This document shows, piece after piece, positions 33,399 to 59,711 of a DNA stretch of 64,000 nt. A model generated the notes under the pieces. It saw only the letters and a program-made list of their open reading frames with translations. It had not been told where the DNA came from and made no database searches. Location of the stretch: the NCBI RefSeq assembly GCF_001411495.1, contig NZ_CP012982.1, positions 1,674,001 to 1,738,000 of the forward strand, read 5' to 3'. The position numbers were made by a program, and so were the translations under genes. The stretch's first letter is position 1; each line of letters opens with the position of its first letter. This DNA is from Burkholderia cepacia ATCC 25416. GTDB taxonomy: Bacteria > Pseudomonadota > Gammaproteobacteria > Burkholderiales > Burkholderiaceae.

Positions 33399-33423
33399 TG
33401 TAGGTTGGCAAAAAAGGTGGCCT
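33399..33423 (+). repeat. Left terminal inverted repeat (25 bp)
   Basis: It begins TGTAGGTTGGCAAAAAAGGT and is identical to the reverse complement of 59687-59711. It contains a 16-bp subrepeat GGCAAAAAAGGTGGCC (33407-33422) that recurs near the right end. Confidence 0.92.
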
Positions 33424-33441
33424 TTTTTGCAGTATTTGATC

Positions 33442-33516
33442 AAAACTATTGATGTGGAAATTAAATAGTTTTCATTGAAACTCCCAGTGTTTTTGTCTGG
33501 TCGGTCTGATCAGACC
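33442..33516. repeat. Two inverted repeats inside the left end
   Basis: AAAACTATT (33442-33450) and AATAGTTTT (33464-33472) form a 9-bp arm pair. GGTCTGATCAGACC (33503-33516) is a perfect palindrome. They lie between the terminal repeat and the tniB remnant and could be remnants of a regulatory or resolution site. Confidence 0.6.
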
Positions 33517-33595
33517 CCCGACGCGCATCGTTCCCGACGGCGGCGGCACCGGGTGGTGCGGTCAAAGACGTCACCTGTCGAAGCCCATCGCGTGT

Positions 33596-34018
33596 AACCC
33601 TCAGCTGACCCGGCGATTCTCAGCGCATCATGAGCTGCGTCGGTTTGATTGGGCGCTGCCGGACGATCGTCGGGAATTTGCTGGCGTACTGAAGTACATG
33701 CAGAGCCGATTACCCTTGCCGTGCCCCGAACTTTATTCTCCGGATTTCGCGATGAGAATGTACTTGGCTTCCGCCGGTGTAATCGACTACGTTGCCAAGA
33801 TCATCGACGGGGCGGTTTTGTGTGCCATTGAGCGTGGTAAGAGTCGGCTCGGTCTTACGGAATTCGAACAAGCTTTTGCCGAGGAGGTCTGGGCTGGTGG
33901 GGTAGGTAGGCTCAATCCATTTCACCCCGATGCGGAGTTGCGTGATCTCGTGGGTACTGGTGAGCCCTTCTGGTATCTCGCTCGCGACGTGAATGGAAAT
34001 GGCAAGAAACTCCGCTGA
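33596..34018 (+). pseudogene. tniB: TniB/TnsC-like ATPase, C-terminal remnant
   Basis: About 140 codons in frame from NPQLTRRF to the TGA at 34016. LRRFDWALPDDRREFAGVL, LPLPCPEL, GVIDYVAKIIDGAVLCAIERGKSRL and ELRD fit the lid and C-terminal domain of TniB/TnsC AAA+ proteins. The Walker A and B parts are gone and no upstream start exists, so it is a truncated remnant. It ends 38 bases before the tniQ start at 34056. Confidence 0.7.
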
Positions 34019-34055
34019 ATCGTCGGTAGCGGTTGCAATCGCCTCTCCTCCAAGG

Positions 34056-35606
34056 ATGTTTATGCACCCAGTCATCCAGGTCGGAGAGGCGAGTTCGGCC
34101 TATATGAAGCGCATCGCCGTCAGCAATGGTATCTCGCTAGATCGCCTGTATCAGCTTGGTGTAGTCCTCGACGAGACGGCTCTTGAGAAGGCGTTGTCTT
34201 GGGATCGTATCGCGCCCCCGGTCGAATCGAGACGATACTTGAATAGTCTGATCAGTTTGCGTCGCTCTGCGCCCAGGGCGTGGCTGAACAAGACTGCACG
34301 GTGCTGCCCGCTTTGCTTGCGCGAACAGACGCGCTGGGCAGCCGAGTGGGAATTGCGTCCCTATCTAGCGTGCACCAAGCATCGATGCTGGCTGATCGAT
34401 CGGTGTGGCGCGTGCAACCGCCCCATACTTTGGACAAGAAAATCGCTGCTTTGCTGCGACTGTGGAGAACGGTTTGCAGACATGCAAACGTCGTCAGCAC
34501 CAACGAAGTTCACTTAGCTATCCTCAATAATAGCTAGTAGGCTTCCAAATTTTTGCGGAGAATCTTCTGTATTCGATGGGCTTTCGTTGAATGACATGAT
34601 TTCTCTTCTTGTGCACTTCGGGAACCCAACCGATGCCGAAAAAGCCGGTTGCCGTCGCGAGGCAGGCCACATCGGAGCAATGAGCAACGCCATCGCGGCC
34701 CTTGATCCATCGGCCGATGCATTGTCGGTGTGGCCATCTGGGTTTCGGACATATCTAAGTAAGATGCACAAGGAACGAGGCGACGAGGATGGGTGTGTCG
34801 GATCCACTTTCCGAGGCATCTATACCTACATTCGCTCGAACCAACATAAAGGAGAATTCGGGTTCCTAAGGGACGTTGTTTTGCAGTACCTCGTCGATCA
34901 TTGGCCGTGGCCTTCGCTTGATCGGAAAAACGCCCTGATGGACACCGTCGCATCTCGATTGCCCTGGATGTGGGCGTCAAGCGCAGCTCGGGAACTCAAT
35001 ATGAAAGAAGAGAAGCTCAAGGAGTTAGCTGGGAAGGGGCTGATCGTGGTCAAATATCGACCATCTCGAAGCAAACGAATGTTGCTGGCTGTTCGGCGCG
35101 AAGACCTACCGAGGATTCGGCAGATCTTGCATGAGCAGGCTGGCCTCAAGGCGCTTCGGAACCTTGGGATATCGATTCGACGGCAGATCGTGTTGCTCCC
35201 GCTCCTTTTTCCGGAGGCTCAAGGGGATACCGTACAGTTTCGCAAAGGAGAACAAGTGCAGGTATTGAGATCCAGTATCGAAAAGCTACTCAAGCTTGCC
35301 GAGGATTTGCCGGTCATCGACTATGAGGGTGCCGAGCAAGTAGTGTTGGCACGGGTACTTCGATCGTGTGCTTGGCGTAACGAGATGATCGAGCATCTCT
35401 TTCGGATGATTCTCCGTGGCGAGATGAAGCCGGAGGCTGTGCTCAAGGGTAAGCCAGGGTTCACTGGATGGCTGTTTTCTCGAGAGGCGCTGGAAAGAAT
35501 CAAGCTTGAGGGCTCGCTGACACGGCTGAAGGCATATTCGCAGGCAGGCGCCAACGCGCTTCCCGCGCTGGCGCCACCAAACCGGACGATATCGACGTCA
35601 TCGTAA
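34056..35606 (+). pseudogene. tniQ: TniQ-family transposition protein with in-frame TAG
   Basis: A single reading frame of 517 codons, counting the final stop, is interrupted by one TAG at 34515-34517; the frame before and after is the same. The N-terminal half has HPVIQVGEASSAYMKRIAVSNG, typical of TniQ/TnsD starts, and a zinc-binding region CCPLCLREQTRW, CTKHRCWLIDRCGACNRP and LLCCDCGERF. After the stop it continues through DGLSLNDMISLLVHFG and a long helical C-terminal region (about 340 residues). TniQ links target choice to the transposase. AT-richer codon use than the chromid sets it apart. The start could also be 33993, overlapping tniB. Confidence 0.78.
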
Positions 35607-35715: not shown

Positions 35716-35838
35716 GACGGCGGTCTCAAGACGCGCGGCTGCCAGGACATCCTGATTACCGTGGTCGATGGCCTGGAGGGGCTCACCGAAGTCATCAGCA
35801 TGACCTATTCGCGAATCCCGGTTGCGCCCCACGCATGA
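35716..35838 (+). pseudogene. IS256-family transposase fragment
   Basis: Forty codons reading GLKTRGCQDILITVVDGLEG match the central catalytic-Asp region of IS256-type transposases (usually LKxRGVxDILIxxVDGLKG). It runs out of homology within a few codons and stops. No terminal repeats are visible, so it is a relic. Confidence 0.65.
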
Positions 35839-35913
35839 ATTGGCATCTTGTGCGTCGAAGCGGCAATATTTTTTCTTTCCATAGCCTTTCAAATGCGCAG
35901 CAAGGTACTGTAT

Positions 35914-35999
35914 GACAGGGGAATACCCTGCCTTTTTTTTTCGATCATGTTTTATGTATCATGACCTAACTTTTGCAACATGTACTAACTCAGGGCGCC
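35914..35999 (+). promoter_or_regulatory. Conserved promoter/operator module, copy 1
   Basis: GGGAATACCC (35919-35928), a T-run, then ATGTATCATGACCTAAC (operator-like half ATGAC at 35961-35965). It is the most diverged of four copies: the left arm of the GTCAT-N-ATGAC palindrome is altered. It lies 240 bases before the first amine-oxidase gene. Confidence 0.75.
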
Positions 36000-36205
36000 A
36001 GAAAATCCTTATCGGTATGGGGCAGTACGGCGCGTGTACAGGCAGGAATGCGAACCGGATTAGCGCCCCCGTCAAGGGCAGGCGGCCCGGTGGCAGGTGA
36101 AGCGGATCGGGATCGCATCCTGTCTTCAGACTCCGCGCGAACGATGGCCGCCTGCCGCCAGGGCAGCCGGAGTTCGCGCCCCAATGCAGGCGTCATTCAC
36201 AGATT

Positions 36206-37690
36206 ATGTCCAGGAAGTCATCCACCAGCGGGGCGGCCGACCTGCAGCGCAGGCAGTGGCTCAAGGTTGCCGGTGCATCGGTCGCGGCGGGCGGTCTCGC
36301 ACTCGGCGCCGCGCGGGCGAAGGCCGATGCGGCGCCTGCCGCCGGGAACGACAGCGGCGTGCTCGATGTCGCGATCGTCGGCGCCGGGCTGGCGGGCCTG
36401 ACGGCCGCGCGCGACCTGCGCTACGCCGGCTGCGAATCCTTCGTCGTGCTCGAGGCGCGCGACCGCGTGGGCGGCCGCACGCTGAACTACGACGTGGGCG
36501 GCGGCCACGTGACCGAAGTGGGCGGCCAGTGGATCGGCCCGGGCCAGACGGCGGTCGCCGATCTTGCTCGCGAGCTGGAAGTCGGCACGTTCCCGAGCTA
36601 CTACGCGGGCAAGACCGTGATTCTCGGCGGCGACGGGCGCGCCGAGATCGACCTGGAGGGCACCTTCGGCACCGACGAGGCCGTCGCGGCGAAACTGAGC
36701 AGGTTGTCGCGCGACGTGCCGTCGGGCGCGCCGTGGACGTCGCCCAAGGTCGGCGAACTCGACCGACTGTCGGTCGGCGACTGGCTCGCGACGCAGGGCA
36801 TCAAGGCGGAAGACCGGATGGGCTGGAACGCGTCGATCTCGCTGTCGGGCGGCGTCGCGCCGGCGAAGATGGGGCTGCTGCACTTCCTGTCGATGATCAA
36901 CTCCGCCGATTGCGATTACGCGCAGCTCGATTCGATCAAGCACAGCGCGCAGGAAACCCGCTTCGTCGGCGGCTCGCAGATCCTCAGCATCCGGATGGCG
37001 CAGCAACTGGGCGACAAGGTGCGGCTGTCGTCGCCGGTGCGGCGGATCGTCGGCTGGGATCGCGATGTCGTGACGCTGGAAACCGATCGCGGCACGGTGC
37101 GCGCGAAAAAGGTCGTGATGGCGCTTCACCCGGCGCTGTGTCATCAGGTGCAGTTCGATCCGCCGCTGCCTGAAAAGCGCCACGCGTTGCAGCGTGCGTG
37201 GCCGGCCCATTCGCCGGCGCGCAAGACCGCGATGGTCTACCGCCGCCCGTTCTGGCGCGACAAGGGCTTGAACGGCCACATCTTCCAGACCGACGGGCCG
37301 GTGTTCTGGGCTTACGACAATTCACCGCCGGGCGGCGAGATCGGCGTGATCAACGCGTTCGTCCGGAATGCGTTGGTGCCGTCGGATCCGCAGGCCGCGA
37401 AGCAGATGCACATGGATCTCTATGCGCAGGCGTGGGGCGACGAAGCGCGTGCGCCGGTGTCGTACCACGATCGCGACTGGGGGCTCGCCGACCCGTGGAC
37501 GCTCACGTGCGTATCGGCGATCCCGCCCGGCTTCTGGAGCGCGCACGGCGAAGCGCTGCGTGCGCCGTGCGGCAACCTGATCTGGTCGGGCACCGAGACC
37601 GCGAACATCTGGGCCGGCTACATGGACGGCGCCGTGCGCTCCGGTCACCAAAGCGCGCTTCAGGCGCTGAATGCGCTGCGTCATGCTTAG
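36206..37690 (+). CDS. Tat-exported flavin amine oxidase 1
   Basis: A 494-residue FAD protein of the flavin monoamine oxidase family. The N-terminus QRRQWLKVAGASVAAGGLA is a Tat-type twin-arginine signal, so a folded periplasmic enzyme is expected. The FAD loop VAIVGAGLAGLTAARDL is near residue 54, followed by EARDRVGGRTLNYD, GGQWIGPGQ and the closing FAD motif WSGTETANIWAGYMDGAVRSG. No covalent-FAD Cys motif is obvious. The next gene, two bases after a shared boundary, encodes a two-haem cytochrome c; NicA2-type amine oxidases are known to pass electrons to a cytochrome c rather than O2. I infer a cytochrome-c-linked amine dehydrogenase. Confidence 0.9.
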   Translation: MSRKSSTSGAADLQRRQWLKVAGASVAAGGLALGAARAKADAAPAAGNDSGVLDVAIVGAGLAGLTAARDLRYAGCESFVVLEARDRVGGRTLNYDVGGGHVTEVGGQWIGPGQTAVADLARELEVGTFPSYYAGKTVILGGDGRAEIDLEGTFGTDEAVAAKLSRLSRDVPSGAPWTSPKVGELDRLSVGDWLATQGIKAEDRMGWNASISLSGGVAPAKMGLLHFLSMINSADCDYAQLDSIKHSAQETRFVGGSQILSIRMAQQLGDKVRLSSPVRRIVGWDRDVVTLETDRGTVRAKKVVMALHPALCHQVQFDPPLPEKRHALQRAWPAHSPARKTAMVYRRPFWRDKGLNGHIFQTDGPVFWAYDNSPPGGEIGVINAFVRNALVPSDPQAAKQMHMDLYAQAWGDEARAPVSYHDRDWGLADPWTLTCVSAIPPGFWSAHGEALRAPCGNLIWSGTETANIWAGYMDGAVRSGHQSALQALNALRHA

Positions 37691-37700
37691 GATCACGAAG

Positions 37701-38360
37701 ATGAAGAAACGGCTTTTATTGCTCACGGCGGTGGTGGCGATCGGTGCGTTGCTGGCCCTCTACGGCCCGACGTTGCTCGGCTTCTATCGCCTGCAGCGCC
37801 ATATCGATACGGCCGCGCAAGCCGATGACGCCGACGGCGGCCCGTGGCCGCGCGTGACAGACGCGTGCATGGGCTGCCACGGCGTGAAGGGCACGTCGCT
37901 CAGCCAGGCGTATCCGAGCCTTGCCGGCCAGCCGGCGCAATACGTGGCCGCACAGCTTCGCGCATTTGCGGGCGGGCAGCGCACGAACCCGACGATGGGC
38001 CCGCTCGCGATGACGATGAGCGAAGCCGAGATCACGCGTCTGGCCGGCTATTACGCGAAGCAGGCGCCGCTGGACAACCGCTATTTCAAGCCGGATGCAC
38101 GACTGCGCACGAAAGGCGAGCAACTGGTGACGGGCGGTGCGTGCGCGGCCTGCCACGGCGCACAGCTGATGGGGCAGGCGCAATTCCCACGGCTGGCCGG
38201 GCAGGGATACGACTATCTGCTCGCGCAGCTCGACGCGTTCGCGAAGGGCTCGCGCAGCGAGGCGACCGGCACGATGCAGCGCGTCGCGCAGGCGATGTCG
38301 GCGGACGATCGGGCGGCGGTGGCGTCCTATCTCGCGAGCCTCGGCCCCGCTGGGCAGTGA
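37701..38360 (+). CDS. Two-haem cytochrome c (c4-like), partner of amine oxidase 1
   Basis: A 219-residue membrane-anchored or secreted cytochrome. The signal anchor is LLLLTAVVAIGALLALYGPTL. There are two class-I haem sites, ACMGCHG (about residue 59) and ACAACHG (about residue 152). Met ligands are likely in NPTMGPLAM and GTMQRVAQAM. The two-domain layout is that of cytochrome c4. An upstream ATG at 37683 is possible, but the ATG at 37701 gives a normal signal. It follows the amine-oxidase gene immediately and is the probable electron acceptor. Confidence 0.9.
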   Translation: MKKRLLLLTAVVAIGALLALYGPTLLGFYRLQRHIDTAAQADDADGGPWPRVTDACMGCHGVKGTSLSQAYPSLAGQPAQYVAAQLRAFAGGQRTNPTMGPLAMTMSEAEITRLAGYYAKQAPLDNRYFKPDARLRTKGEQLVTGGACAACHGAQLMGQAQFPRLAGQGYDYLLAQLDAFAKGSRSEATGTMQRVAQAMSADDRAAVASYLASLGPAGQ

Positions 38361-38395
38361 ATCAACGGCAGCAATCGACTTCGGGAGTTCGAACC

Positions 38396-39070
38396 ATGGA
38401 TTACAGATCACTTGCCCTTTGTCTTTCCAGCGCGACGCTTGCGGCGACGACCGGCGTCTACGGCTTCAAGTTCGTGCGCAAGCGCAACTTCCTGATCGGC
38501 CTCGAGTGGTGGATCGTGACGATCTCCGCATCCAACGCGGTGATCTTCTTCGCGACCGAATCGCCGGTGTCGTACTTCATCTCGCATTTTCTCGACGCGT
38601 TCTCGCGGGGATTCGGGATGCCGGTGATCGCGGTCGCCGGCCTGATGGCCGTCACGCACGGCTACCGGCCGTCGATGCGGCAGGACGTGACGCTGTTCGT
38701 GCTCGCGACGCTCGGGACGATCGCGCTCGTGGCCGGCGTGTTGCAGCACGCGCTGCCGTACTTCTACGTGGCGATGTGGACGCTGATGTCGATCTATCTC
38801 GCCGGTTTCGTGTGGCGACTCGCGCGTGCCGGGCACGCGTTCCATGCGCTGACGACGACGATCGCGCTCGTCGCTGCGCAGGCGATCGCGTGCATCTACG
38901 ACTTCTACAAGATCCCCGGCGAGGAAACCAACGTCGTGTTCAATTTCTACGTACTGGCGTTGCTGACGTGGTCGTACCTGACCGTCGCGCTCTATTACGC
39001 CTATTGCGCACTGGAGCGGGAGAAGGGGCGCGGTCGGGCCGATGCCGGTGTGTTGTCGTATCCTAAATGA
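38396..39070 (+). CDS. Polytopic membrane protein of unknown function
   Basis: A 224-residue protein with about six or seven transmembrane segments, for example LEWWIVTISASNAVIFFA, LFVLATLGTIALVAGVL, YVAMWTLMSIYLAGFVW and FNFYVLALLTWSYLTVALYY. Family not recognised. It is third in the operon after the amine oxidase and cytochrome, so it might anchor or connect them to the respiratory chain; no haem or quinone motif is visible to support that. Confidence 0.65.
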   Translation: MDYRSLALCLSSATLAATTGVYGFKFVRKRNFLIGLEWWIVTISASNAVIFFATESPVSYFISHFLDAFSRGFGMPVIAVAGLMAVTHGYRPSMRQDVTLFVLATLGTIALVAGVLQHALPYFYVAMWTLMSIYLAGFVWRLARAGHAFHALTTTIALVAAQAIACIYDFYKIPGEETNVVFNFYVLALLTWSYLTVALYYAYCALEREKGRGRADAGVLSYPK

Positions 39071-39131
39071 GTAGCTGTACTGAGGAGGTAACGAAGGATC
39101 GCTCCGGTTGCCGTGATCGTGGAGTGCGCGG

Positions 39132-39734
39132 ATGGACCGCATTCGCCTGACCCGCGCCGAGCGGCGCGATGCGACGCGCGAACGCCTGCTCGGCGCCGCG
39201 CGCGCGATCCTCGCGGAGAAAGGCTATGCGGCCGCGAGCGTGGAGGATATTGCAGCGGCGGCCGGGCATACGCGCGGCGCATTCTACTCGAACTTCCGCG
39301 ACAAGGCCGACGTGCTGTTCGAGCTGCTGCGCCGGGATCGGGACGAGGCTGCCGCGGCATTGCAGCGGATCGTCGGTTCGCACGATCCGGTCGACGATGC
39401 GCAGCGCGCGATGCTCGCGTATTGGCGAAGGGGCGCGACCCAGCCTGCAGTGCACCTGATGTGGCTCGACGCGCAGTTCCAGGCGGCGCGCGATCCGCGG
39501 TTCCGTGCGCGCTTCGGCGCGTTGCTACGAGACCGCCAGGCACTCGCGGCCGCGTGCATCGACGCGTATGCCGCGCGGGCCGGCGTGTCTTTGCCGTTGC
39601 CCACGCCGGTGCTGGCGCTCGGCCTGACCGCGTTGTGCGATGGCATGCAGTCGCACGGCGCGGCCGATGCGCTGGCCGACGCGGTACTGGTCGGCTTCAT
39701 CGCGCACACGGTGTTCGACCGCGTGCGCGGATGA
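39132..39734 (+). CDS. TetR-family regulator 1
   Basis: A 200-residue regulator. The helix-turn-helix lies within residues 12-60 (LGAARAILAEKGYAAASVEDIAAAAGHTRGAFYSNFRDKADVLFELL). The ligand domain is Ala-rich. It lies 61 bases after the membrane-protein gene and 245 bases before the second operon, between promoter-module copies 1 and 2, so it is a good candidate to bind the GTCAT-N-ATGAC operators. Confidence 0.9.
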   Translation: MDRIRLTRAERRDATRERLLGAARAILAEKGYAAASVEDIAAAAGHTRGAFYSNFRDKADVLFELLRRDRDEAAAALQRIVGSHDPVDDAQRAMLAYWRRGATQPAVHLMWLDAQFQAARDPRFRARFGALLRDRQALAAACIDAYAARAGVSLPLPTPVLALGLTALCDGMQSHGAADALADAVLVGFIAHTVFDRVRG

Positions 39735-39847
39735 CGGCGCGAAGACGCGGTGGCCGCGCGTTGTCGTGCGCCTGTATGAAGGCCGAAAGCCGATTGTCAT
39801 GACGGGCCGGCGGCGGCCGGCCACAAACGTTCGATCATGCAGACGAA

Positions 39848-39925
39848 ACAGGGAATACCCCGTCTTTTTCTTTTAATTATTTTTGTCATGATGACCTAAC
39901 ATAGTCATCATGTTCTACTGATGTG
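39848..39925 (+). promoter_or_regulatory. Conserved promoter/operator module, copy 2
   Basis: GGGAATACCC (39851-39860), a T-rich run, TTGTCA as a -35 (39883-39888) overlapping the perfect palindrome GTCATGATGAC (39885-39895), and CATCAT 17 bases on as a weak -10. It lies 84 bases before the PhyH-like gene, the first gene of the longest operon. Confidence 0.85.
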
Positions 39926-39978
39926 CCGGCAGTGAAGACGAACCGCCGGTTGAGGCTGAACGAATCGGGAGATAGACG

Positions 39979-40812
39979 ATGGATGCAATGAAGCGAAAGG
40001 CGTTCTTCGAGGACGGAGCCGTGCTCATCGAAGGGGTGCTCAACGACGAACAACTCGCGCAATGCCGCGCGGTGTTCGACTGGGGAATGGAGAATCCGGG
40101 CCCGATGGCGACGACGCTGCTCGACGGCACCGAATACAAGTCGCACAACGACAACGCGAACCCGTATGCGAAGGAGCGGCTCGACGCGCTGGTCGGCACG
40201 CTGCCGTTCGGGCAGCTGTTCGCCGACCTGTGGGGTTCGAAGCACGTGTGGTACTTCGCCGAGGAGCTGTTCATGAAGGGCGGCGGCAAGAGCGCACGCT
40301 CGCCGTGGCACCAGGACACGTCGTACCTGCCGTGGCAGGGCATGCACTTCGGCAACGCGTGGATCAGCTTCGAGCACGTGCCCAAGCGTAATGCGCTGGA
40401 GATCGTGCGCGGCTCGCATCACGGCGTGCGGCATGACGGCACGACGTTCCAGAACGCCGAGGATCCGACCGACCCGCTGCACGGCGGCGACGTGTGGCCG
40501 CGCCTGCCGAACATCGAGGCCGAGCGCCGCGCGGCGCCGGATGCGTACGACATCCTGTCGTGGGAAACGAAGCCGGGCGACGTGCTGCTGCTCCATCCAG
40601 GCGTGCTGCACGGCGGCGGCGCGGTCGACGCCGATTTCCCCGATCGCCATACGCTCGTGCTGCGCTTTTTCGGCGACGACGCGGTGTTCAGCCCGCTGCC
40701 CGACGAAAGCCGCTCGGGATTCACGCCGGCCGGCGTGCTGTTTGTCGAGGAACTCGCCGGGCTGAAGGCCGGCGATCCGTTCCGCGCGCCGTGTTTCCGC
40801 CAACTCGTCTGA
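39979..40812 (+). CDS. Phytanoyl-CoA dioxygenase-like Fe(II)/2-oxoglutarate oxygenase
   Basis: A 277-residue double-stranded beta-helix oxygenase of the PhyH group. The iron facial triad is visible as SPWHQDTSY (HxD) and HPGVLHGGG (distal His), with the 2-oxoglutarate Arg probably in HTLVLRFFGDD. PhyH enzymes hydroxylate branched acyl-CoAs and other bulky carboxylates; the real substrate here is open. It is the first gene after operator copy 2 and 16 bases before ridA. Confidence 0.9.
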   Translation: MDAMKRKAFFEDGAVLIEGVLNDEQLAQCRAVFDWGMENPGPMATTLLDGTEYKSHNDNANPYAKERLDALVGTLPFGQLFADLWGSKHVWYFAEELFMKGGGKSARSPWHQDTSYLPWQGMHFGNAWISFEHVPKRNALEIVRGSHHGVRHDGTTFQNAEDPTDPLHGGDVWPRLPNIEAERRAAPDAYDILSWETKPGDVLLLHPGVLHGGGAVDADFPDRHTLVLRFFGDDAVFSPLPDESRSGFTPAGVLFVEELAGLKAGDPFRAPCFRQLV

Positions 40813-40828
40813 ACCGGGAGAATTCGTC

Positions 40829-41242
40829 ATGACAGCAACTCCGAAGCGGCAATCGATCGTGCCGGCTGCGTTCCAGCCGTGGTACGACGCGTACCACTTC
40901 TCGCCGGCGACGCGCGTCGGCGACACGATCTGGGTGTCGGGCCAGGTCGGCCTCGACGCGCAGATGCAGCCGGCCGACGGCGTGCAGGCCCAGGCGCGGA
41001 TCGCGTTCGAGTGCCTGAAGGCGATCCTCGAGGAAGCCGGCGCGAGCCTCACCGATGTCGTGGAGCTCACGACTTTCCACACGGATCTGCAATGCGAGAC
41101 CGAAGGCTTCGCGGCGGTCAAGGACGTGTATTTCCCCGACCGTTACCCGTCGTGGACAGCGGTCGGCGTCACGCAACTGGCGCTGCCGGGGCTGTGCGTC
41201 GAGATTCGCGCGGTGGCGGTGGCCGGCTCCGGCAAGGGCTGA
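40829..41242 (+). CDS. RidA-family (YjgF/YER057c) imine/enamine deaminase-like protein
   Basis: A 137-residue protein with the YjgF fold: FSPATRVGDTIWVSGQVGLDAQ, AFECLKAILEEAGASLTDVVELTTFHTD and the C-terminal VGVTQLALPGLCVEIRAVAV, with an Arg-Glu pair positioned as in active RidA. RidA proteins hydrolyse reactive imines to ketones plus ammonia, which fits a pathway starting with amine oxidation. The GGGAG ribosome site is good. Confidence 0.9.
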   Translation: MTATPKRQSIVPAAFQPWYDAYHFSPATRVGDTIWVSGQVGLDAQMQPADGVQAQARIAFECLKAILEEAGASLTDVVELTTFHTDLQCETEGFAAVKDVYFPDRYPSWTAVGVTQLALPGLCVEIRAVAVAGSGKG

Positions 41243-41456
41243 CGGAAGGCACGAGGGTTTTTCGCGGGATTTGCGTTCCATATGAATCGCAGTCCTGATA
41301 AAAAAGTAACGGGATAGCAGTCGATTGGCACGTGGCCGGCCGGGACCCCGGCCGGCCTCGATCAGGGCGCGACGTCATCGTCGATTGACGACGACGATCG
41401 AAACAAATGCGTTTCGTCCGGGATGGGCGAGCGAAGGCGGAGCAGGAAGGAGAACC

Positions 41457-50670: not shown

Positions 50671-50688
50671 TGCGCGAAACGCGTCAGG

Positions 50689-50762: not shown

Positions 50763-50843
50763 AAGGGCACGCCGGATACGAAGCAGCAGTACCCGACCTC
50801 GAACCGAACCGGTTCTCGACAATTCACGTTTCAGGAGACAACC

Positions 50844-51974: not shown

Positions 51975-52016
51975 CGGCCGCCGCCGCACCGGACCAGACC
52001 CAACGGAACTTGTGAC

Positions 52017-53570
52017 ATGGCCATTATCGATTTCTACGACCGCGGCTGGCGGCTCAATCCCGACGGCATCGCGTACATCCAGGACGATCGCAACTACACG
52101 TTCCAGGAGATCGGCGAGTTGTCGTGCCGCATCGCCAACGGCTTGCTCGCCGCCGGCTTCGCGAAGGAGGCGAAGGCGGCGGTGTGGGCCGACAACGACG
52201 TGATCGGCTGGAGCTGCGCGCTCGGGATGTGGCGCGCCGGGCTCGCGTACATCCCGGTGAACGGCCGCAACGCGGTGGCCGAGAACCAGTACGTGCTCGA
52301 TGCGTTCGACTGCGAAGTGCTGTTCTTCCATCAGGCATTCGCGGCCGCGATCGATGCGCTGCGGCCGAGCCTGCCGAAGATCCGGCTGTGGGTGTGCCTC
52401 GACGCCGACCTGCCGTGGGCACCGTCGCTGGCTTCGTGGAGCGAGCACCAGCCGGCGACGCCGCCGGCCGTCGATTACGCGATGGACGACGTCGTCGCGC
52501 TGTCGGCCACGGGCGGCACGACGGGCGCGCCGAAGGGCGTGATGAACACGCATCGTTCGCTGCAAACGTACTTCGCGCAATTCATGATCGCGATGACGTA
52601 CGACGATGCGCGCCCCGTGAATCTCGCCGCGGCACCGATGACGCACACGGCCGGCATGATGTCGCTGCCGTGCACCGCGCGCGGCGGCACGGTGGTCGTG
52701 CTGCCGAAGCCGGACCCGGCGCTGCTGCTCGGTGCGATCGTCAAGCACCGCGTGACCGAGTTCTTCCTGCCGCCGACCGTGATCTACCGGCTGCTCGACA
52801 TCCCCGGCATCGAGCAGGTCGACTTCTCGTCGCTGCGCTATTTCCTGTACGGCGCCGCGCCGATGTCGGTCGAGAAACTCAAGCGCGCGATCGACGTGTT
52901 CGGCCCGGTGATGACGGGCGGCTATGGGCAGACCGAGGCGCCCGCGTCGATCTCGTACCTGACGCCGGCCGAGCACTTTGTCGACGGCAAGCTCGCGTCC
53001 GACACACGGCTCGCGTCGGTCGGCCGCCCGAACCCGCTGGTGCGCGTCGAGATCGTCGGCGAGTGCGGCGAGCTGCTGAAGCAGGGCGAGACCGGCGAGA
53101 TCTGCGTACGCGGCGACCTCGTGATGAAGGGCTACTACCGCGCGCCGGACAAGACGGCCGAGACGATCGTCGACGGCTGGCTGCACACCGGCGACATCGG
53201 CCATCTCGATCGCGACGGCTATCTGCACATCACCGACCGCAAGAAGGACATGATCATCAGCGGCGGCTTCAACGTCTATCCGAGCGAGATCGAGCAGGTG
53301 ATCTGGGCGCATCCGGCCGTGCAGGATTGCGCGGTGATCGGCGTGCCCGACGACAAATGGGGCGAGGCCGTGAAGGCCGTGGTCGAACTCAATGCCGGGC
53401 AGCAGGTGAGCGCGGAAGAGCTCGTCGCGCTGTGCAAGGAGAAGCTCGGCTCGGTGAAGGCGCCCAAGAGCGTGGACTTCGTCGCGGCGCTGCCGCGCAG
53501 CACGGCCGGCAAGGTGCTGAAGAAGGACCTGCGCGAACAGTACTGGCAGGGTCAGCAACGCAGGATCTGA
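52017..53570 (+). CDS. AMP-forming acyl-CoA ligase
   Basis: A 517-residue adenylate-forming enzyme with all core motifs: LSATGGTTGAPKGVMNTH (A3 loop), MTGGYGQTEAPAS (A5), HTGDIGHLDRDGYLHITDR (A7), KKDMIISGGFNVYPSEIE (A8) and PRSTAGKVLKK with the catalytic Lys (A10). It activates a carboxylic acid with ATP and CoA; the chain type cannot be read from the sequence. It would feed the thiolase and acyl-CoA dehydrogenase in the same element. Confidence 0.93.
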   Translation: MAIIDFYDRGWRLNPDGIAYIQDDRNYTFQEIGELSCRIANGLLAAGFAKEAKAAVWADNDVIGWSCALGMWRAGLAYIPVNGRNAVAENQYVLDAFDCEVLFFHQAFAAAIDALRPSLPKIRLWVCLDADLPWAPSLASWSEHQPATPPAVDYAMDDVVALSATGGTTGAPKGVMNTHRSLQTYFAQFMIAMTYDDARPVNLAAAPMTHTAGMMSLPCTARGGTVVVLPKPDPALLLGAIVKHRVTEFFLPPTVIYRLLDIPGIEQVDFSSLRYFLYGAAPMSVEKLKRAIDVFGPVMTGGYGQTEAPASISYLTPAEHFVDGKLASDTRLASVGRPNPLVRVEIVGECGELLKQGETGEICVRGDLVMKGYYRAPDKTAETIVDGWLHTGDIGHLDRDGYLHITDRKKDMIISGGFNVYPSEIEQVIWAHPAVQDCAVIGVPDDKWGEAVKAVVELNAGQQVSAEELVALCKEKLGSVKAPKSVDFVAALPRSTAGKVLKKDLREQYWQGQQRRI

Positions 53571-53595
53571 ACCTGCTTCATATGGATTCCATACG

Positions 53596-54837
53596 ATGAG
53601 CAACATCTACATCGCCGGTATCGCGATGACCGTGTTCGGCCGGCATCTCGACCGCAGCCTCGACGATCTGGCGAGAGAGGCGCTGCAACGCGCATTGCGG
53701 GACGCAGGTTGCCACGCCGACGCGATCCGCGCCGCGTTCTATGCGGGCATCACGAACGGCCCGCTGCAGGGGCAACTGTCGATCCCCGGCCAGGTCGTGT
53801 TCAGCAAGATCGGCCTCGAAGGCATTCCGGTGTTCAACGTCGAGAACGCGTGCGCATCCGGCAGTACGGCCGTGCACCTCGCCGTGCGCGAACTGCAGTC
53901 GGGCGCGTGCGACGTCGCGCTCGCGCTCGGCGCGGAAAAGATGAACGTCGCGGACAAGGCGAAATCGTTCGCGCTGTTCGAGGCCGGCTGGGACGTATCG
54001 CGCGTCGACGAGAATTTCGCGACGCTCGCGCGGCTCGGCGAAGGGATCGAGCTGCCGCCCGGCTCGGAGTCCGAGCGCCCGTACAGCCGCTTCATGAAGA
54101 TCTACGCGGCGATGTGCCGGCACCACATGCACACGTACGGCACGACGCAGCGGCAGATCGCGGCCGTGTCGGCGAAGAACCACGGGCATTCGGTGCACAA
54201 CCCGTATTCGCAGTTCCGCCAGCCGTTCACGATCGACGAGGTGCTGGCGGCCGCGCCGATCACGTACCCGATCACGCTGCCGATGTGCGCGCCGCTGTCG
54301 GACGGCGCGGCGGCCGCGATCCTGTGCACGGAGGAAGGGCTGGAGCGCATCGGCGCCGATCGCAGCCGCTGCATCCGGATCGCCGCGAGCGTGATCCGCA
54401 GCTTCACGCGGCGTCGCATCGACGAGCCGCACAAGCACATCGGCCGGCTCGCCGCGTTGCAGGCCTACGAGCAGGCCGGCGTGGGGCCGGAGGACATGGA
54501 CGTGGCCGAAGTGCACGACGCGTCGGCGATGGGCGAAATCATCCAGGCCGAGAACCTCGGCTTCGTGCCGCTCGGCGAAGGCGGTCCGGCCGCCGAGCGC
54601 GGCGAGTTCACGCTCGGCGGGCGCATCCCGATCAACACGTCGGGCGGCCTCGAATCGAAGGGCCATCCGCTCGGCGCGACCGGCATCGGGCAGTTGTACG
54701 AGCTGGTCACGCAGTTGCGCGGCGAAGCGGGTGCGCGGCAGGTGGACGGCGCGCGTCATGCGATCCAGGAAAACGGCGGCGGCTTGCAGGGCGTCGAAGA
54801 GGCCGCGTTGGCGATTCACATTCTCAGCAGGGACTGA
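53596..54837 (+). CDS. Thiolase-superfamily protein (SCP-x / lipid-transfer type)
   Basis: A 413-residue thiolase-fold enzyme. The nucleophile Cys is in FNVENACASGSTAVH, the His site is GGLESKGHPLGATGIGQ, and the region where classical thiolases have the second Cys reads QENGGGLQGVE, as in SCP2-type thiolases that cleave branched or steroid side-chain beta-keto acyl-CoAs. The length is normal. The position after the ligase supports a beta-oxidation-like cleavage. Confidence 0.9.
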   Translation: MSNIYIAGIAMTVFGRHLDRSLDDLAREALQRALRDAGCHADAIRAAFYAGITNGPLQGQLSIPGQVVFSKIGLEGIPVFNVENACASGSTAVHLAVRELQSGACDVALALGAEKMNVADKAKSFALFEAGWDVSRVDENFATLARLGEGIELPPGSESERPYSRFMKIYAAMCRHHMHTYGTTQRQIAAVSAKNHGHSVHNPYSQFRQPFTIDEVLAAAPITYPITLPMCAPLSDGAAAAILCTEEGLERIGADRSRCIRIAASVIRSFTRRRIDEPHKHIGRLAALQAYEQAGVGPEDMDVAEVHDASAMGEIIQAENLGFVPLGEGGPAAERGEFTLGGRIPINTSGGLESKGHPLGATGIGQLYELVTQLRGEAGARQVDGARHAIQENGGGLQGVEEAALAIHILSRD

Positions 54838-54848
54838 CGGAGGCGGAC

Positions 54849-56333
54849 ATGGGCGACGCACACGGCGCAATCGCGCTCGGGCAGGGAGCGCAGGCAGGGC
54901 AGACGACGCGACAGGCGTCGGGCGGGGTCGGCGCGGCGGCGTCGATGCAGGCGGCGGGCGCCGACGCGGCCGGGCCGCTCGCGCGCTGGGGCGAGGAAAT
55001 GCGCGCCGACGCCGCGTTGCGGAAGTATCGTCCCGTCGGCGGCTGGATCGACGCGCCCGAGCGCGCGCAACCTGAGCTTGAAGGCGACATGCAGGCGGAC
55101 GTGATCGTCGTCGGCGCAGGCTTCGCCGGTCTGTCCACCGCGCTGGAACTCGCGGCGCGCGGCGCGAGCGTCGTCGTGCTCGAACGCGAATTCGCGGGCT
55201 TCGGCGCGAGCGGGCGCAACGCCGGCTATCTCGCCGGCGGCCAGGGACTCGAATACGAGCTGTTTCTCAAGCGGGTCGGCCACGAACAGGCCAAGCGGAT
55301 CGTCGGTTTCTACGACGAGGGCGTCACATACGTCGAACGCAAGCTCGTCGAATACGCGATCGACTGCGACTACCGTGCGTCGGGCATCATTCGCGCGGGC
55401 GTGCATCCGTCGCAGGAGAAGCGCCTGCGCGAAAGCATGGCCACCGGCATCGAACTCGGCTCGCCCGCGCAGTTTCTCGATGGCGCGGCGATGCGCGAAC
55501 GCGGCATTCCGCCGGCCTTCCTGTTCGGCGCATACGTGCCGGGCGGCGGCACGCTCGATCCCGGCAAGTACGTGACGGGCTTGCGGCGCGCGGCGCTCGC
55601 GGCGGGCGTGAAGCTGTACGAGAACACCGCGCTGCTCGATTTCGACGCGGGCGAGACGGTGCGCGTGCGCACCGCACGCGGCAGCGCGAGTGCACCGGTG
55701 CTGGTGCTCGCGACCAATGCGTACACGCCGCAGCTCGGCCTGCTCGGCGACAAGGTGATGCCGCTGCGCGTGTCGGCGCTCGAAACCGAGCCGCTGTCCG
55801 ACGCGCAGCTCGCGGCGCTCGGCTGGCCGAATCGCGAGGGCATCGTCACGCCGCACCTGACGATGGAGAGCCATCGCCTGACCGCGCGCAACACGTTGTT
55901 GCTGACGACCAAGCGGCTGCATTACGTGTATGGCTCGCAGACGCCGAACGTGCCGGACGACGACGCGTATCGCGCGCTGCTGAAGGCGCTGCACACGCGC
56001 TTTCCGCAACTCGGCAACGTGCCGGTGCGCGCATGCTGGAGCGGCTACATCTCGTTCGCGGGCGATGCGTTGCCGGTGGTCGGTGTGGCCGGCGCGCACG
56101 GCAACGTGTTCTACACGGCCGGGTGTTCGGGGCATGGCGTCGGCACGCAATCGCTGATCGGGCGCGTGCTGGCCGAGCGCATTCACGATGGGCGATCGCC
56201 GCTGCTCGACACGTTGACGCACAAGACGCCGTCGGTGCCGCCCGAGCCGCTGCGGTGGTGTGCGATGACCGCGATGCTCGGCGTCGCGAACCTGCTCGAC
56301 GAACGCGTGAACCGCAAGGTGCGGCCGGTGTAG
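54849..56333 (+). CDS. DAO-family FAD oxidoreductase (amine/amino-acid oxidase type)
   Basis: A 494-residue flavoenzyme. An Ala/Gly-rich leader of about 75 residues precedes ADVIVVGAGFAGLSTALELAARGASVVVLE. GASGRNAGYLAGGQGLEYE and the C-terminal SFAGDALPVVGVAGAHGNVFYTAGCSGHGVGTQ identify the gamma-glutamylputrescine/sarcosine-oxidase-like group. It would oxidise a secondary amine or amino acid in the cytoplasm. No signal peptide is clear, unlike the other two amine oxidases. It starts 11 bases after the thiolase stop. Confidence 0.88.
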   Translation: MGDAHGAIALGQGAQAGQTTRQASGGVGAAASMQAAGADAAGPLARWGEEMRADAALRKYRPVGGWIDAPERAQPELEGDMQADVIVVGAGFAGLSTALELAARGASVVVLEREFAGFGASGRNAGYLAGGQGLEYELFLKRVGHEQAKRIVGFYDEGVTYVERKLVEYAIDCDYRASGIIRAGVHPSQEKRLRESMATGIELGSPAQFLDGAAMRERGIPPAFLFGAYVPGGGTLDPGKYVTGLRRAALAAGVKLYENTALLDFDAGETVRVRTARGSASAPVLVLATNAYTPQLGLLGDKVMPLRVSALETEPLSDAQLAALGWPNREGIVTPHLTMESHRLTARNTLLLTTKRLHYVYGSQTPNVPDDDAYRALLKALHTRFPQLGNVPVRACWSGYISFAGDALPVVGVAGAHGNVFYTAGCSGHGVGTQSLIGRVLAERIHDGRSPLLDTLTHKTPSVPPEPLRWCAMTAMLGVANLLDERVNRKVRPV

Positions 56334-56497
56334 CGGCATGCGATCGTCGCGACACGCACACGTGGATCCGGCCGGGCCGCCTGACGCAGGGCGGCTCGAT
56401 GGAAAATGCAGCGCGCATCGGGTATAGTCGTTGGCGCTCCGTAAGGCACGGAGCATCCATTCGACGAAGCCGAAACGCCCTCTTCACGACGAACACG

Positions 56498-57172
56498 ATG
56501 ACAGTGTCCAACGAGCCGCGCAGTACGAGAAAGCGGCGCACTTCGACTCCCACCGCCGCAGCCGGCAACACCGACGGCTTGCGGGCGCAGGGCCTGCGCA
56601 CGCGCAACACGATCATTCGCGTCGCACGCAAGCTGTTGCTGGAAGGCGGGCCGCTGGAGTTCTCGCAGCGCGCGGTTGCGGCGGCGGCAGGGATCAGCGT
56701 CAGCAATCTGCAGTACTACTTCCCGACGCGCATCGCCGTGTTGCGGGCCGTCATCGAGCCGGTCATCCAGGCGTATCTCGACGACATGAAGCGCGCGATC
56801 AGCAGCGAAGCGTCGCCGCGCGACGTGTTCGAGGAGATCATGCAGCGCTCGGTCTCCGATGCGAAGGATGCCAAGTACAACGCACTATTCCGGCATTTGC
56901 TGTCGTTTGCGGCCACCGATCCCGAGTGTTTCAAACTCTATGACGAGTGGTACGCGACGCTGACGCGCGACCTCGCGCAACTGCTGCGCGCGGTCACTCC
57001 GGCGTTCAGCGCGGCCGACAGCCGGCATGCGGCGACGATGCTGATCGCACTGGCCGATGGCCTCGCGATGCAGTACGGCACCGGCCGGCAGACGCAGGCG
57101 CTCGATGCGTATTTCATCGCGACGTCGCGCGCGATCGCCTACGGCACACTGACGGCGCCCGCGGGCAAATAA
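56498..57172 (+). CDS. TetR-family regulator 2
   Basis: A 224-residue regulator with a basic, Thr/Ser-rich N-terminal tail (about 30 residues) and a helix-turn-helix within residues 32-80 (TRNTIIRVARKLLLEGGPLEFSQRAVAAAAGISVSNLQYYFPTRIAVL), followed by a helical ligand domain. It ends the third transcription unit, just before operator module 4. With TetR 1 it is one of two candidate regulators of the four modules; which binds which cannot be told from sequence. Confidence 0.9.
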   Translation: MTVSNEPRSTRKRRTSTPTAAAGNTDGLRAQGLRTRNTIIRVARKLLLEGGPLEFSQRAVAAAAGISVSNLQYYFPTRIAVLRAVIEPVIQAYLDDMKRAISSEASPRDVFEEIMQRSVSDAKDAKYNALFRHLLSFAATDPECFKLYDEWYATLTRDLAQLLRAVTPAFSAADSRHAATMLIALADGLAMQYGTGRQTQALDAYFIATSRAIAYGTLTAPAGK

Positions 57173-57208
57173 CGGCGCGATCCGCCGCCGCGGCCATGCG
57201 AACGGAGA

Positions 57209-57282
57209 CAGGGGAATACCCTGTCTTTTTTTTGCTTCCAGTGTTTGTCATTATGACCTATGTTTGGTATGTATTACTAGAT
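57209..57282 (+). promoter_or_regulatory. Conserved promoter/operator module, copy 4
   Basis: GGGAATACCC (57212-57221), a T-run, TTGTCA -35 (57245-57250) overlapping the perfect palindrome GTCATTATGAC (57247-57257), and TATGTA as -10 after 17 bases (57268-57273). About 89 bases before the acyl-CoA dehydrogenase gene. Confidence 0.85.
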
Positions 57283-57345
57283 ATGGGATGGCCGGGCGCG
57301 TCCGCTGCCGGGCCGACATGATTCGAGTCCAGGAGGAGAACGGAG

Positions 57346-58635
57346 ATGATTCGTCTGAACAAGTCCGCAGCGCTGCCCGTGGTCGGCTTGACCGGCTTCG
57401 AGACGCCGCTGAGCGAAGAGGAAAGCGCAATCCAGCACACGGTTCATCGTTTTGCGCGCGACGTGCTGCGGCCGATCGGCCGCGAGCTCGACCGGATGAC
57501 GGCGGAGGACGTGATCGCGCCGGGCTCGCCGTACTGGGCCGCGATCGTCGAGAGCGCGAAGCTCGGGCTCGATCCGCAACTGATCGCGCAGTTTCCGCCG
57601 GAGACGGCCGTGCGCATCGAGTCGCTGATCGGCGAGGAGCTCGGCTGGGGCGATTCGGGCCTCGCCGTGTCGATCGGCGCGGCCACGATGCCGCTGATGA
57701 TGGCGCACACGGTCGGCAACGCCGAACTGGTCGAGATGTGCGCGGGCAAGGTCGGCTGCTGGATGAACACGCAGCCTGACCGCGGGTCGGACGCGGCGAT
57801 CCTGTATCGGCAGGAGCTCGCCGGGAACGGCCGGCAGCCGGTCGGCAACGTAACGGCGAAGGTCGGCGCCGACGAGATCGTGATCAACGGGCAAAGCTCG
57901 GCGTGGATCTCGAACGGCTCCGTCGCGCAGGTCGCGCTCGCGTACATGGCGGCCGACTACGGCGACGGCTTCTACGGCGAAGGCGAACGCAGCGCGTTCA
58001 CGAACGGCATCGCGATGATCCTGCCGCTCGATCTGCCCGGCGTGTCGCGCGGCAAGCCGCTCGACAAGATCGGCCAGCGCTCGCTGCCGCAGGGCGAGAT
58101 CTATTTCGACAACGTGAAGGTACCGAAGCGCTTCGCAGTCGCGCTGAAGGACGACTATCTCGGCAACCTTGCGTCGACGTGGTCGTATGCGGGCACGCAC
58201 ATGTGCCAGGTGTTCGTCGGCGCGGCGCGGGCCGCGTTCGAACTGGCGCTCGCGTATTGCCACGAGCGCAAGCAGGGCGGCGCGCTGCTGATTGATCACC
58301 AGATGACGCACCTGCGCATCGGCGAGATGCTGCGTCGGCTCGAGATGGCGCGCGCGATCGCGCGCCGCAGCCTCGCGTTCTCGCGGATGTCGCCGCAGAG
58401 TCATCCCTATGCGACCGCGCAGGCGAAGGTCAGCGTGACCGAGGAAGCGATGAAGATCACGCACGAGGCGTTCCAGCTGTTCGGCGGCAACGGCACCACG
58501 CGCGAATTCCCGATCGAGAAGCTGTTCCGCGACGTGCGTTCGGCGCTGATCGAGGACGGCGAGAACTACGTACTCGCGTCGCGCCTCGGCGTGCTGGCCG
58601 GACAGCTTTATCAGAATGGATGGGCGCGTGAGTAA
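57346..58635 (+). CDS. Acyl-CoA dehydrogenase
   Basis: A 429-residue flavoenzyme. The N-terminal helical domain ends near DSGLAVSIGAATMPLMMAH. The beta domain has SSAWISNGSVAQVALAYMA and the C-terminal domain has QLFGGNGTTREFPIEKLFRDVRSALIEDGENYVLASR, where the Glu of IEDGEN is at the catalytic-base position. It introduces the alpha-beta double bond of an acyl-CoA. It has its own operator module, so it is controlled with the rest although it is a separate unit. Confidence 0.92.
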   Translation: MIRLNKSAALPVVGLTGFETPLSEEESAIQHTVHRFARDVLRPIGRELDRMTAEDVIAPGSPYWAAIVESAKLGLDPQLIAQFPPETAVRIESLIGEELGWGDSGLAVSIGAATMPLMMAHTVGNAELVEMCAGKVGCWMNTQPDRGSDAAILYRQELAGNGRQPVGNVTAKVGADEIVINGQSSAWISNGSVAQVALAYMAADYGDGFYGEGERSAFTNGIAMILPLDLPGVSRGKPLDKIGQRSLPQGEIYFDNVKVPKRFAVALKDDYLGNLASTWSYAGTHMCQVFVGAARAAFELALAYCHERKQGGALLIDHQMTHLRIGEMLRRLEMARAIARRSLAFSRMSPQSHPYATAQAKVSVTEEAMKITHEAFQLFGGNGTTREFPIEKLFRDVRSALIEDGENYVLASRLGVLAGQLYQNGWARE

Positions 58636-59094
58636 GGCCGTCCGATAGGCCAGGGCGTGCGCCGGATCGGCAGGGGTACGCGTTGCCCATTGCAGGCATG
58701 CGCCGCATGCAGCGTCATCGTCTACGATCTTCGATTCAAACCGCCAGGATCTATACGAACGAAACAGCTCCCGGCGATGCGGCTTTGTCAATCATCGCTG
58801 GGAGTTGCGCAATTCAGGCGCCGACTAATCCACCTAGGAGTGCGTGACTACTCTTGTTCATGATGTTCGAGTGTGTCCGAAGCGCACAGTCTCGAGCGGC
58901 TCTACTGTCAACGAGAACGAAAAGGAAAACGCCCGCTCTGCGGGCGGGCGTTTGAAGAGTTGGGGCAGGAAACTTACTGCGGAACAACGTCCAAGCCAGT
59001 ATGCCCCGCACCCTGTTTCTTGTCGCCGGCCCTAGACCGGCTGAAGCATAAGGGTAGCCGCAATTTTACGGACTCACAACAGGTGCCCACTGCC
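58636..59094. other. Gap after the acyl-CoA dehydrogenase, no gene seen
   Basis: About 460 bases with a 10-bp-stem hairpin (58927-58953) and AT-balanced, non-coding-looking sequence. Short open frames on either strand show no family features. Confidence 0.55.
58921..58955 (-). terminator. Hairpin terminator, best read leftward
   Basis: AAACGCCCGC (58927-58936) and GCGGGCGTTT (58944-58953) form a 10-bp stem with a 7-base loop. On the minus strand the stem is followed by TTTTCCTTT-like sequence. It would end the antitoxin transcript and possibly also the acyl-CoA dehydrogenase transcript. Confidence 0.65.
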
Positions 59095-59499
59095 TTATCC
59101 TGCGGCGCCTGTCTCAAGCGACGTGATATAGCGGAGCAAGTCGTCTGTACGTCCCTCCGAAATTAGCTGTTCGGCAGTCTTGTAGTCAAAGGGTGGCAAG
59201 GGCTCATTGCGATACCAGAAGAGAGAGCTCGGCACGTCACCGGAGACGTCGGTTGCAGCACGGATGATCCGAAGTGCGTCCCGAAGGAACTTCTGCGCAC
59301 TCTCCGATCCTGACAGGCGGCCAATTGTGTTGCGATGTACATTGGCGAGCCGCGCCAGCGTCTGCATATCGATATGCAGAGCGGCCGCGAAACGCCTGGC
59401 CGAGATGATCGGATCGGGGCTGTCTGGATCTCGCATAGACGCCATGAATTGCATGAAATCGCTGGGCGGTGCCGAATTGCAGGTGATGTCGGATCCCAT
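59095..59499 (-). CDS. Xre/MbcA/ParS-type antitoxin-like protein, orphan
   Basis: A 134-residue protein. An Xre-like helix-turn-helix (FAAALHIDMQTLARLANVHRNTIGRLSG) is followed by a DUF2384-type toxin-binding end (LFWYRNEPLPPFDYKTAEQLISEGRTDDLLRYI). Such proteins usually neutralise a RES-domain toxin encoded next to them; no such gene is present here, either side. The start at 59499 has AAGAAAGGG about nine bases upstream. It lies just inside the element's right end. Confidence 0.75.
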   Translation of the reverse strand: MGSDITCNSAPPSDFMQFMASMRDPDSPDPIISARRFAAALHIDMQTLARLANVHRNTIGRLSGSESAQKFLRDALRIIRAATDVSGDVPSSLFWYRNEPLPPFDYKTAEQLISEGRTDDLLRYITSLETGAAG

Positions 59500-59578
59500 G
59501 AGCGCCGCCCTTTCTTGGGTTCCGTCGTGCGCGTAAGTCACTGATTTTAAAAAACATCTAGAGCGATCTGCGATCAAG

Positions 59579-59703
59579 GGCCAATTTTTCTGCAAATTTT
59601 ATAGGGAAAGATCACCTTTTCTGCCGCTTTTCAGCAGCGAAATTCGCAGAAAAGATGGCCAAGTCCTTGATTTGCATGGACCGCAGAGGCCACCTTTTTT
59701 GCC
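59579..59703. repeat. Four 15-16-bp subterminal repeats at the right end
   Basis: GGCCAATTTTTCTGC (59579-59593), GATCACCTTTTCTGCC (59610-59625), GCAGAAAAGATGGCC (59646-59660, opposite orientation) and GGCCACCTTTTTTGCC (59688-59703, in the terminal repeat). Multiple copies of one motif near an end are typical of transposase binding sites in Tn7-like elements. Confidence 0.8.
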
Positions 59704-59711
59704 AACCTACA
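59687..59711 (-). repeat. Right terminal inverted repeat (25 bp)
   Basis: It ends in CCAACCTACA at 59711 and is the exact inverted copy of 33399-33423. Confidence 0.92.

Follow-up and report, generated by a model that had tools for sequence, protein, structure and literature searches.

The 64-kb stretch of Burkholderia cepacia ATCC 25416 analysed here (contig NZ_CP012982.1, positions 1,674,001 to 1,738,000; called the window below) carries a 22.7-kb catabolic gene cluster between two transposon ends in front of a padR-family regulator gene, which raises the question of how such a cluster came to lie at this place. An initial annotation, made from the letters of the window alone, had described the locus as a metabolic cluster packaged as a transposon of the Tn7/Tn5053 superfamily. 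This description is supported by the present analysis and can be sharpened to that of a defective Tn7-like transposon, the best reading of the element. In our judgement it is likely that this transposon occupies an attachment site at padR and that its cluster was captured in a sister clade and brought in as cargo, horizontal delivery as transposon cargo being the simplest reading of the comparisons given below.

Ends and transposition genes of the element

The element measures 26,313 bp and is bounded by terminal inverted repeats which are identical over exactly 25 bp, with the direct duplication CACGC outside both ends (Table 1). The perfect ends and the CACGC copies reported initially could thus be confirmed with exact coordinates. 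When a 15-letter core of the end motif was searched for with up to three mismatches, three more copies were found in the right end (59579, 59610 and 59646), in agreement with the extra motif copies proposed for it, together with one overlapping inverted copy in the left end (33416) and one further match in the 64-kb window, at 50346. Throughout the host genome (8.6 Mb, four contigs), the element end occurs only at the two termini of the element (24 letters, up to three mismatches), and a reversed-pattern control of the end motif gave no match in 398 genomes. Those parts of the two ends which belong to the element itself are poorer in G+C (55.2 and 55.8%) than the cargo (67.1%) or the left flank (66.6%). 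Tn7 produces a target duplication of 5 bp. Inverted TGT...ACA ends with several sites resembling transposase-binding sites are present here, as is a Tn7-like 5-bp duplication, which reads CACGC in the window and GTGGG in the element of genome G162.

Genes for transposition persist as relics to the left of the cargo. The tnsC/tniB relic comprises the C-terminal part only and matches a 311-residue frame which is TniB by Pfam, while the tniQ/tnsD-type gene forms one frame of 537 codons with its sole in-frame stop at 34515-34517, Pfam recognizing TniQ in the first piece and giving no match in the second. The TniB/TniQ remnants and dead transposition genes noted initially at the left end are thereby accounted for. 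Using 12 Tns/TniQ proteins from three Burkholderia elements as queries against the element, TnsC and TniQ queries matched, and none of the two TnsA and three TnsB queries did at 1e-5. Since no TnsA or TnsB match was obtained and only the C-terminal part of tnsC is left, tnsA, tnsB and most of tnsC have been lost. As the genes for the heteromeric transposase are missing from this copy, it is called a defective derivative, and we infer its Tn7-like parentage from related elements. Judged by its sequence, the element should not move on its own, given these losses and the stop in tniQ, although a related transposase may still be able to move it.

Such related elements occur in several Burkholderia genomes. 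In G273, tnsA (PF08722 at 3.2e-6, above cut-off), tnsB, tnsC and two tniQ genes stand in a row, all of them supported by Pfam, and G205, G049 and G246 encode close relatives of the G273 TnsC with adjoining frames matching a TnsB and a TniQ. TnsC of these four genomes is related to that of the element in the window. Furthermore, the first 60 bp of the right ends in G205 and G049 resemble the right end of the element, and an Xre/MbcA-like gene beside the right end is shared with the window, at 72-74% identity in G205 and G049 and 75% in G258; the right ends of G162, G343, G234, G313 and B. arboris showed no such neighbour. The elements of G273, G205 and G049 differ, however, in their terminal letters and lie about 40-57 kb from padR. 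In G205, a right end of this sister family and the next left end are one base apart, as in tandem insertions (L151 12093-12141), and a sister-family end pair only 1.9 kb apart in G141 (L156 4056-5979) is possibly a small non-autonomous element. The host itself has another Tn7-like set on contig 1 (L065 7179-13025, G000:C1), in which TnsB, TnsC/TniB and TniQ are encoded by open frames, while the frame that comes first in the set has no Pfam match and is taken as tnsA by position only. On its 210-kb contig 4 (L066, L005, G000:C4), one frame is TnsC/TniB-like and another encodes TniQ.

A genome search for the 25-bp end together with transposition genes, suggested in the initial annotation as a way to the autonomous parent, was carried out and yielded none. 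The end pattern was found with up to three mismatches in 9 of 398 family genomes including the host, all within Burkholderia. Among 65 Burkholderia genomes, the TniQ piece gave the host plus four weak matches and no parent with these ends, and against plasmids it gave no match. By Pfam, 39 of the 65 genomes, host included, carry some TniQ. The element with the closest TniQ, that of G268, was considered as parent and rejected, having only end matches with six mismatches and no inverted end pair near its operon. At 1e-5, the 12 Tns/TniQ proteins matched none of 15 further stretches, of which 14 come from 11 other genomes and one is the 56 kb to the right of the element in the host; several of these stretches cover part of an element only, and G141, G399 and G367 lie outside the set. 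Weak TniQ traces are present in G217 and G288.

The landing site in front of padR

The left flank of the element (31000-33398) matches in all 61 Burkholderia genomes searched, host included, and in alignments that reach its right edge, homology mostly ends about 15-35 bp before the insertion point. For scoring, an 18-letter end pattern was sought in the first 75 bp past this anchor, with 200 letter shuffles per boundary, in the window and in 55 of the 60 other padR flanks (all but G134, G181, G382, G398 and G401). An element-type end with at most two mismatches stands beside padR at 11 of these 56 boundaries, the window included, and at none of the 11 was any of the 200 shuffles as good. The next-best boundaries, G240 (four mismatches, 0/200 shuffles) and G193 (five, 1/200), are possibly decayed ends and were not counted; the boundary of G288 (L139), from outside the 61-genome flank set, gave no match. 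Left-type letters clearly lie inside at 9 of the 11 boundaries, those of G223 and G367 being too short or altered soon after the end, and the five letters preceding the end are different in all 11. Ends at one conserved place with differing adjacent letters mark a repeatedly used landing site, at which insertion is specific and in one orientation. B. arboris NZ_CP101525.1 adds to this: next to its padR stands the same left end, a VgrG/RHS-type frame of 2014 codons lies inside, and the last letters of the right end are altered.

The distances between end and anchor fall into two groups, 20-25 bp (n = 7) and 35-37 bp (n = 4). The latter includes the window, whose anchor was placed by hand one base beyond the rule, giving 35 bp (36 by the rule). 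Those at the larger distance may have arisen by a second insertion into an end already decayed. G399 has a partial older end immediately ahead of the newer one (L136), and a stretch resembling this older end was also seen in G083 (L010). In G141, only a relic is left, conserved chromosome being reached again about 220 bp inside the end. Within the conserved landing block of the window, at 33312-33338, repeated ATATC-AAAGATA palindromes upstream of padR were observed, possibly the padR operator.

Two further elements at this site help to separate the events. G162 holds a complete one of 42,264 bp with other cargo and GTGGG on both sides. In G343, a left and a right end lie on two contigs that the assembly does not link, GCATC stands outside each of these ends, and conserved chromosome is found 1.4 kb beyond the right one; G343 thus probably holds a third element at the padR site. 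The differing duplications (CACGC, GTGGG and GCATC) mark separate insertions. Beyond the element's right end, the right flank (59712-64000) matches in 24 of 60 other genomes and in none of them beside padR, the best match being G169 with 83% over 2.3 kb on a contig other than its padR contig. Conserved chromosome resumes about 56 kb to the right of the element, the stretch between being further accessory DNA, and the DNA next to the right end (window 59717-64000, L062-L064) gives the impression of a hot spot stacked with islands. The right flanks of G343, G217, G288 and G011 offered no clean empty site, and homology between G217 and the G343 right flank begins within one base of the G343 insertion point without a preceding end.

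Source of the cargo and competing explanations

All 10 relatives whose borders were retrieved show the cluster (35914-58636) in colinear order at either border. By eye, its left border marks the same chromosomal place in nine of them, with G217 as the exception, and in G323 and G303 the cluster is also at this usual locus according to flank matches. When these 20 border loci, each taken with about 6-11 kb of flank, were scanned for three end motifs at up to six mismatches, two matches were obtained, both within the cluster. Copies in relatives without these ends, which the initial annotation had named as evidence against a transposon, thus do occur (all ten scanned and two more by flank), yet they are read here as the source locus and not as a refutation. 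In the host, the two flanks of the usual locus are 85 bp apart, and hence this locus is empty. It is variable across the genus, many genomes having other insertions of various lengths and only G293 besides the host aligning straight through, which is why it is called usual and not native.

A 2.7-kb piece of the cluster was detected in 22 of 65 Burkholderia genomes at 1e-100, host included, with G377 matching only partly at 70%. A 5.7-kb part is present at 85-86% identity elsewhere in G169, G246 and G187, and parts of lower identity also occur in other genera of the family; 93 of the 398 genomes surveyed for the cluster had candidates that were not scored, so that the counts of that survey are lower bounds. 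The cluster in the window is 95.0-95.3% identical to those of G141, G211 and G323, whereas a backbone stretch of 5-6 kb is only 89.8-90.9% identical. Among these three genomes themselves, cluster (94.6-95.0%) and backbone (94.1-95.0%) agree. The cargo being closer than the backbone argues for a transfer from that clade, and an outside origin of the host's cluster copy is, on these identities, well supported.

On this basis, a course of events can be proposed. The ends carry arrays of transposase-binding-like sites, and insertion in front of padR produced the CACGC duplication, possibly with the tniQ/tnsD-type protein taking part in site choice, a preference that is itself seen in relatives. 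Most likely, the element picked up the 22.7-kb cluster in the sister clade, where the locus is chromosomal and lacks these ends, and then carried it into the host lineage with its empty usual locus. The loss of tnsA, tnsB and most of tnsC as well as the stop in tniQ may have preceded or followed the last move. As with its mobility in trans and the function of its cluster, we infer the direction and route of transfer and the order of these events.

Several observations weigh against this reading. The searches of Burkholderia genomes, plasmids and other stretches yielded no intact element that has these ends. The exact degenerate end pattern matched only three contigs in genome_contigs, a search from which records near the host genome may be left out, and all three are from Burkholderia (B. 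catarinensis, Burkholderia sp. BCC0506 and Burkholderia sp. D-99). The nearest TniQ, a protein of 460 amino acids, is just 25% identical, and an empty site with a single CACGC was not found, the right flank itself being accessory. Moreover, the identity argument relies on 5-6 kb of backbone, on which G205 (94.2%) and G252 (93.3%), both with the cluster (at 91.7%), are near the host, and the cluster-less G400, G377, G032 and G246 are farther away (89.5-91.5%). The padR flank, unlike the backbone stretch, ranks G246, G400 and others nearest; with these conflicting orders, the species tree is not settled. Loss of an older cluster copy of its own in the recipient lineage is possible. Finally, G217 has a cluster copy at another place with similar sequence just past both cluster edges, near a stretch that looks IS3-like by eye (L187, L188), so other routes of spread exist.

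The G217 copy is also what speaks for a later capture, in which the element reached padR with other content and the cluster was added by recombination or an event mediated by an insertion sequence, without ever having been cargo; the duplication, after all, proves only the insertion of something with these ends. The empty usual locus and the greater nearness of the cargo to the sister clade nevertheless make it probable that the cluster came from outside, and arrival inside the element would need one step fewer, which leaves later capture unlikely, though with a chance worth keeping in mind. Even less can be said for a move within the host's own ancestor, from usual locus to element and not between species. 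A distance of about 150 kb on one contig separates the usual locus from the padR site, and G205 and G252, near by the one backbone stretch, have the cluster at the usual locus. Yet the cargo is 95% identical to G141/G211/G323 as against 90-91% for the backbone, and just 91.7% to G205 and G252. In addition, the 2.7-kb cluster piece was not found in G246, G400, G032, G187, G102 and G343, the nearest genomes by padR flank, an absence limited by the 85% identical 5.7-kb part elsewhere in G246 and G187 and by the G400 genome being only 82% complete. Taken together, we consider such an internal move very improbable.

The class of the element is likewise open to another view, namely that it is of the Tn5053/Tn402 (TniABQ) type and not Tn7-like. 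Members of that group carry tniA-tniB-tniQ without tnsA and target res sites; 25-bp ends, a 5-bp duplication and a TniB/TniQ pair are typical there as well, and the tnsA region is gone from the window copy. Against this stand the TnsC relative in G273, which adjoins tnsA and tnsB, the right end common to tnsABC-tniQ-type elements, and the position of the insertion, which is chromosomal and precedes a gene, the targets of Tn5053 being res sites. Right end and tnsC relic would thus tie the element to Tn7-like parents, with tnsA not visible in this copy, and a Tn5053/Tn402-type element appears improbable.

Cargo genes and relation to known elements

Gene families of the cargo were assigned with Pfam and NCBIfam (Table 1). 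Each of the two flavin amine oxidase family genes is followed by a cytochrome c gene. The cluster possibly serves the oxidation of a hydrophobic compound, which might be amine- or terpenoid-like. Its initial description as complete and self-regulated agrees with the two TetR-type genes and with a plausible set of enzymes and a transporter, completeness being only partly checkable without the substrate. By family name only, a parallel can be drawn between the pump and AmeD, and between the YCF48-like protein and AmeC, of AmeABCD in the monoterpene island of Castellaniella defragrans. AmeABCD is described as an HAE3 RND pump of 787 amino acids with a photosystem-II-assembly-like periplasmic protein, and the available text names DUF1302 and DUF1329 once each (PMC6394551). 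Unlike that island, the enzyme set here has no known terpene activity.

Table 1 Features of the element and its surroundings (positions in the window; families by Pfam and NCBIfam)
Feature	Position	Strand	Remarks
padR-family regulator gene adjoining the landing site	32573..33286	-	Pfam PadR 5e-20
Conserved block upstream of padR, putative attachment site	33287..33380		Homology between genomes stops near its right edge
Left CACGC copy	33394..33398		5-bp duplication
Left end region	33399..33518	+	Aligned with nine other left ends; similarity mostly in first 50-60 bp
Left terminal 25-bp inverted repeat	33399..33423	+	
tnsC/tniB relic, C-terminal part only	33593..34018 (about)	+	37% identity over 126 residues (181-306 of the 311-residue frame); 36% to another
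tniQ/tnsD-type gene, one frame with one in-frame stop	33993..35606	+	Pfam TniQ 3.5e-9 on 33993-34514
Stretch beside cargo	35797..35913		Similar counterpart (about 73%) in G217 copy
Cargo, catabolic cluster	35914..58636	+	22.7 kb; colinear with usual chromosomal locus of relatives
Flavin amine oxidase family protein 1	36206..37690	+	Pfam PF01593 2.3e-50; twin-arginine translocation (Tat)-like start by eye
Cytochrome c, two matched stretches	37671..38360	+	
TetR-family regulator 1	39132..39734	+	
PhyH-type dioxygenase	39979..40812	+	
DUF1329 protein	41325..42824	+	
DUF1302 protein	42903..44747	+	
RND/MMPL transporter	44804..47164	+	Best NCBIfam match HAE3, below that model's cut-off
Open frame, later part YCF48/BNR protein	46735..48480	+	
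Flavin amine oxidase family protein 2	48517..49998	+	Best solved relatives monoamine and putrescine oxidases
Cytochrome c, two matched stretches	49999..50670	+	
DUF5938/saccharopine-dehydrogenase-like protein	50844..51974	+	
Acyl-CoA ligase	52017..53570	+	
SCP2-type thiolase	53596..54837	+	Best solved relative SCP2-thiolase
Translated stretch, DAO-type FAD (flavin adenine dinucleotide) oxidase from about residue 88	54837..56333	+	
Open frame, later part TetR-family regulator 2	56033..57172	+	
Acyl-CoA dehydrogenase family protein	57346..58635	+	
Xre/MbcA-like gene adjoining right end	59095..59595	-	Pfam matches weak, below cut-off; of 8 other right ends compared, 3 adjoin a gene of 72-75% identity
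Right end with four end-motif copies	59579..59711	-	Conserved in four other aligned right ends
Right terminal 25-bp inverted repeat	59687..59711	-	
Right CACGC copy	59712..59716		5-bp duplication

With Tn7-like transposons such as Tn7, Tn6022 and others, as portrayed in the available texts (PMC10293859, PMC8649781), the element shares end arrays of binding-like sites, tnsC and tniQ/tnsD-type genes and a fixed chromosomal site. In contrast to Tn7 and Tn6022, its core genes are mostly lost and its cargo is a whole catabolic locus; metabolic cargo genes are known from Tn7-like elements, and few complete pathways carried by them appear in the account consulted (PMC8649781). BGImetal (PMC10702557) is also a Tn7-like island in Burkholderia, but according to the available text retains tnsABC-tniQ and carries heavy-metal resistance. 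Likewise, CMGI-E of Cupriavidus metallidurans is portrayed in the available text (PMC3384475) as a Tn7-like island with genes putatively for aromatic breakdown, which differs in keeping tnsABC and two tnsD genes, split by a large inversion, and in its other cargo. padR is not mentioned in the main texts of PMC10293859, PMC8649781 and PMC10702557, and no report of padR as a Tn7-like insertion site was found in the open-access literature, although one may exist elsewhere.

What is new here is therefore the landing site in front of padR, which we did not find in print, together with the unusual clarity with which a chromosomal catabolic locus can be linked to a transposon-borne copy; the machinery itself is already known. 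The chromosomal locus in relatives, the empty locus in the host and the transposon-borne copy form a readable chain of locus mobilization. Cargo at the padR site varies, from the catabolic cluster of the window to a VgrG/RHS-type gene in B. arboris and other genes in G162, and a short end motif plus a single flank suffice to survey it. More tentatively, and with the balance of probability somewhat against it, these elements may represent a mostly core-less Tn7-like family of Burkholderia with padR as common landing site, which would be moved in trans by an unseen helper and would ferry whole chromosomal loci between species.

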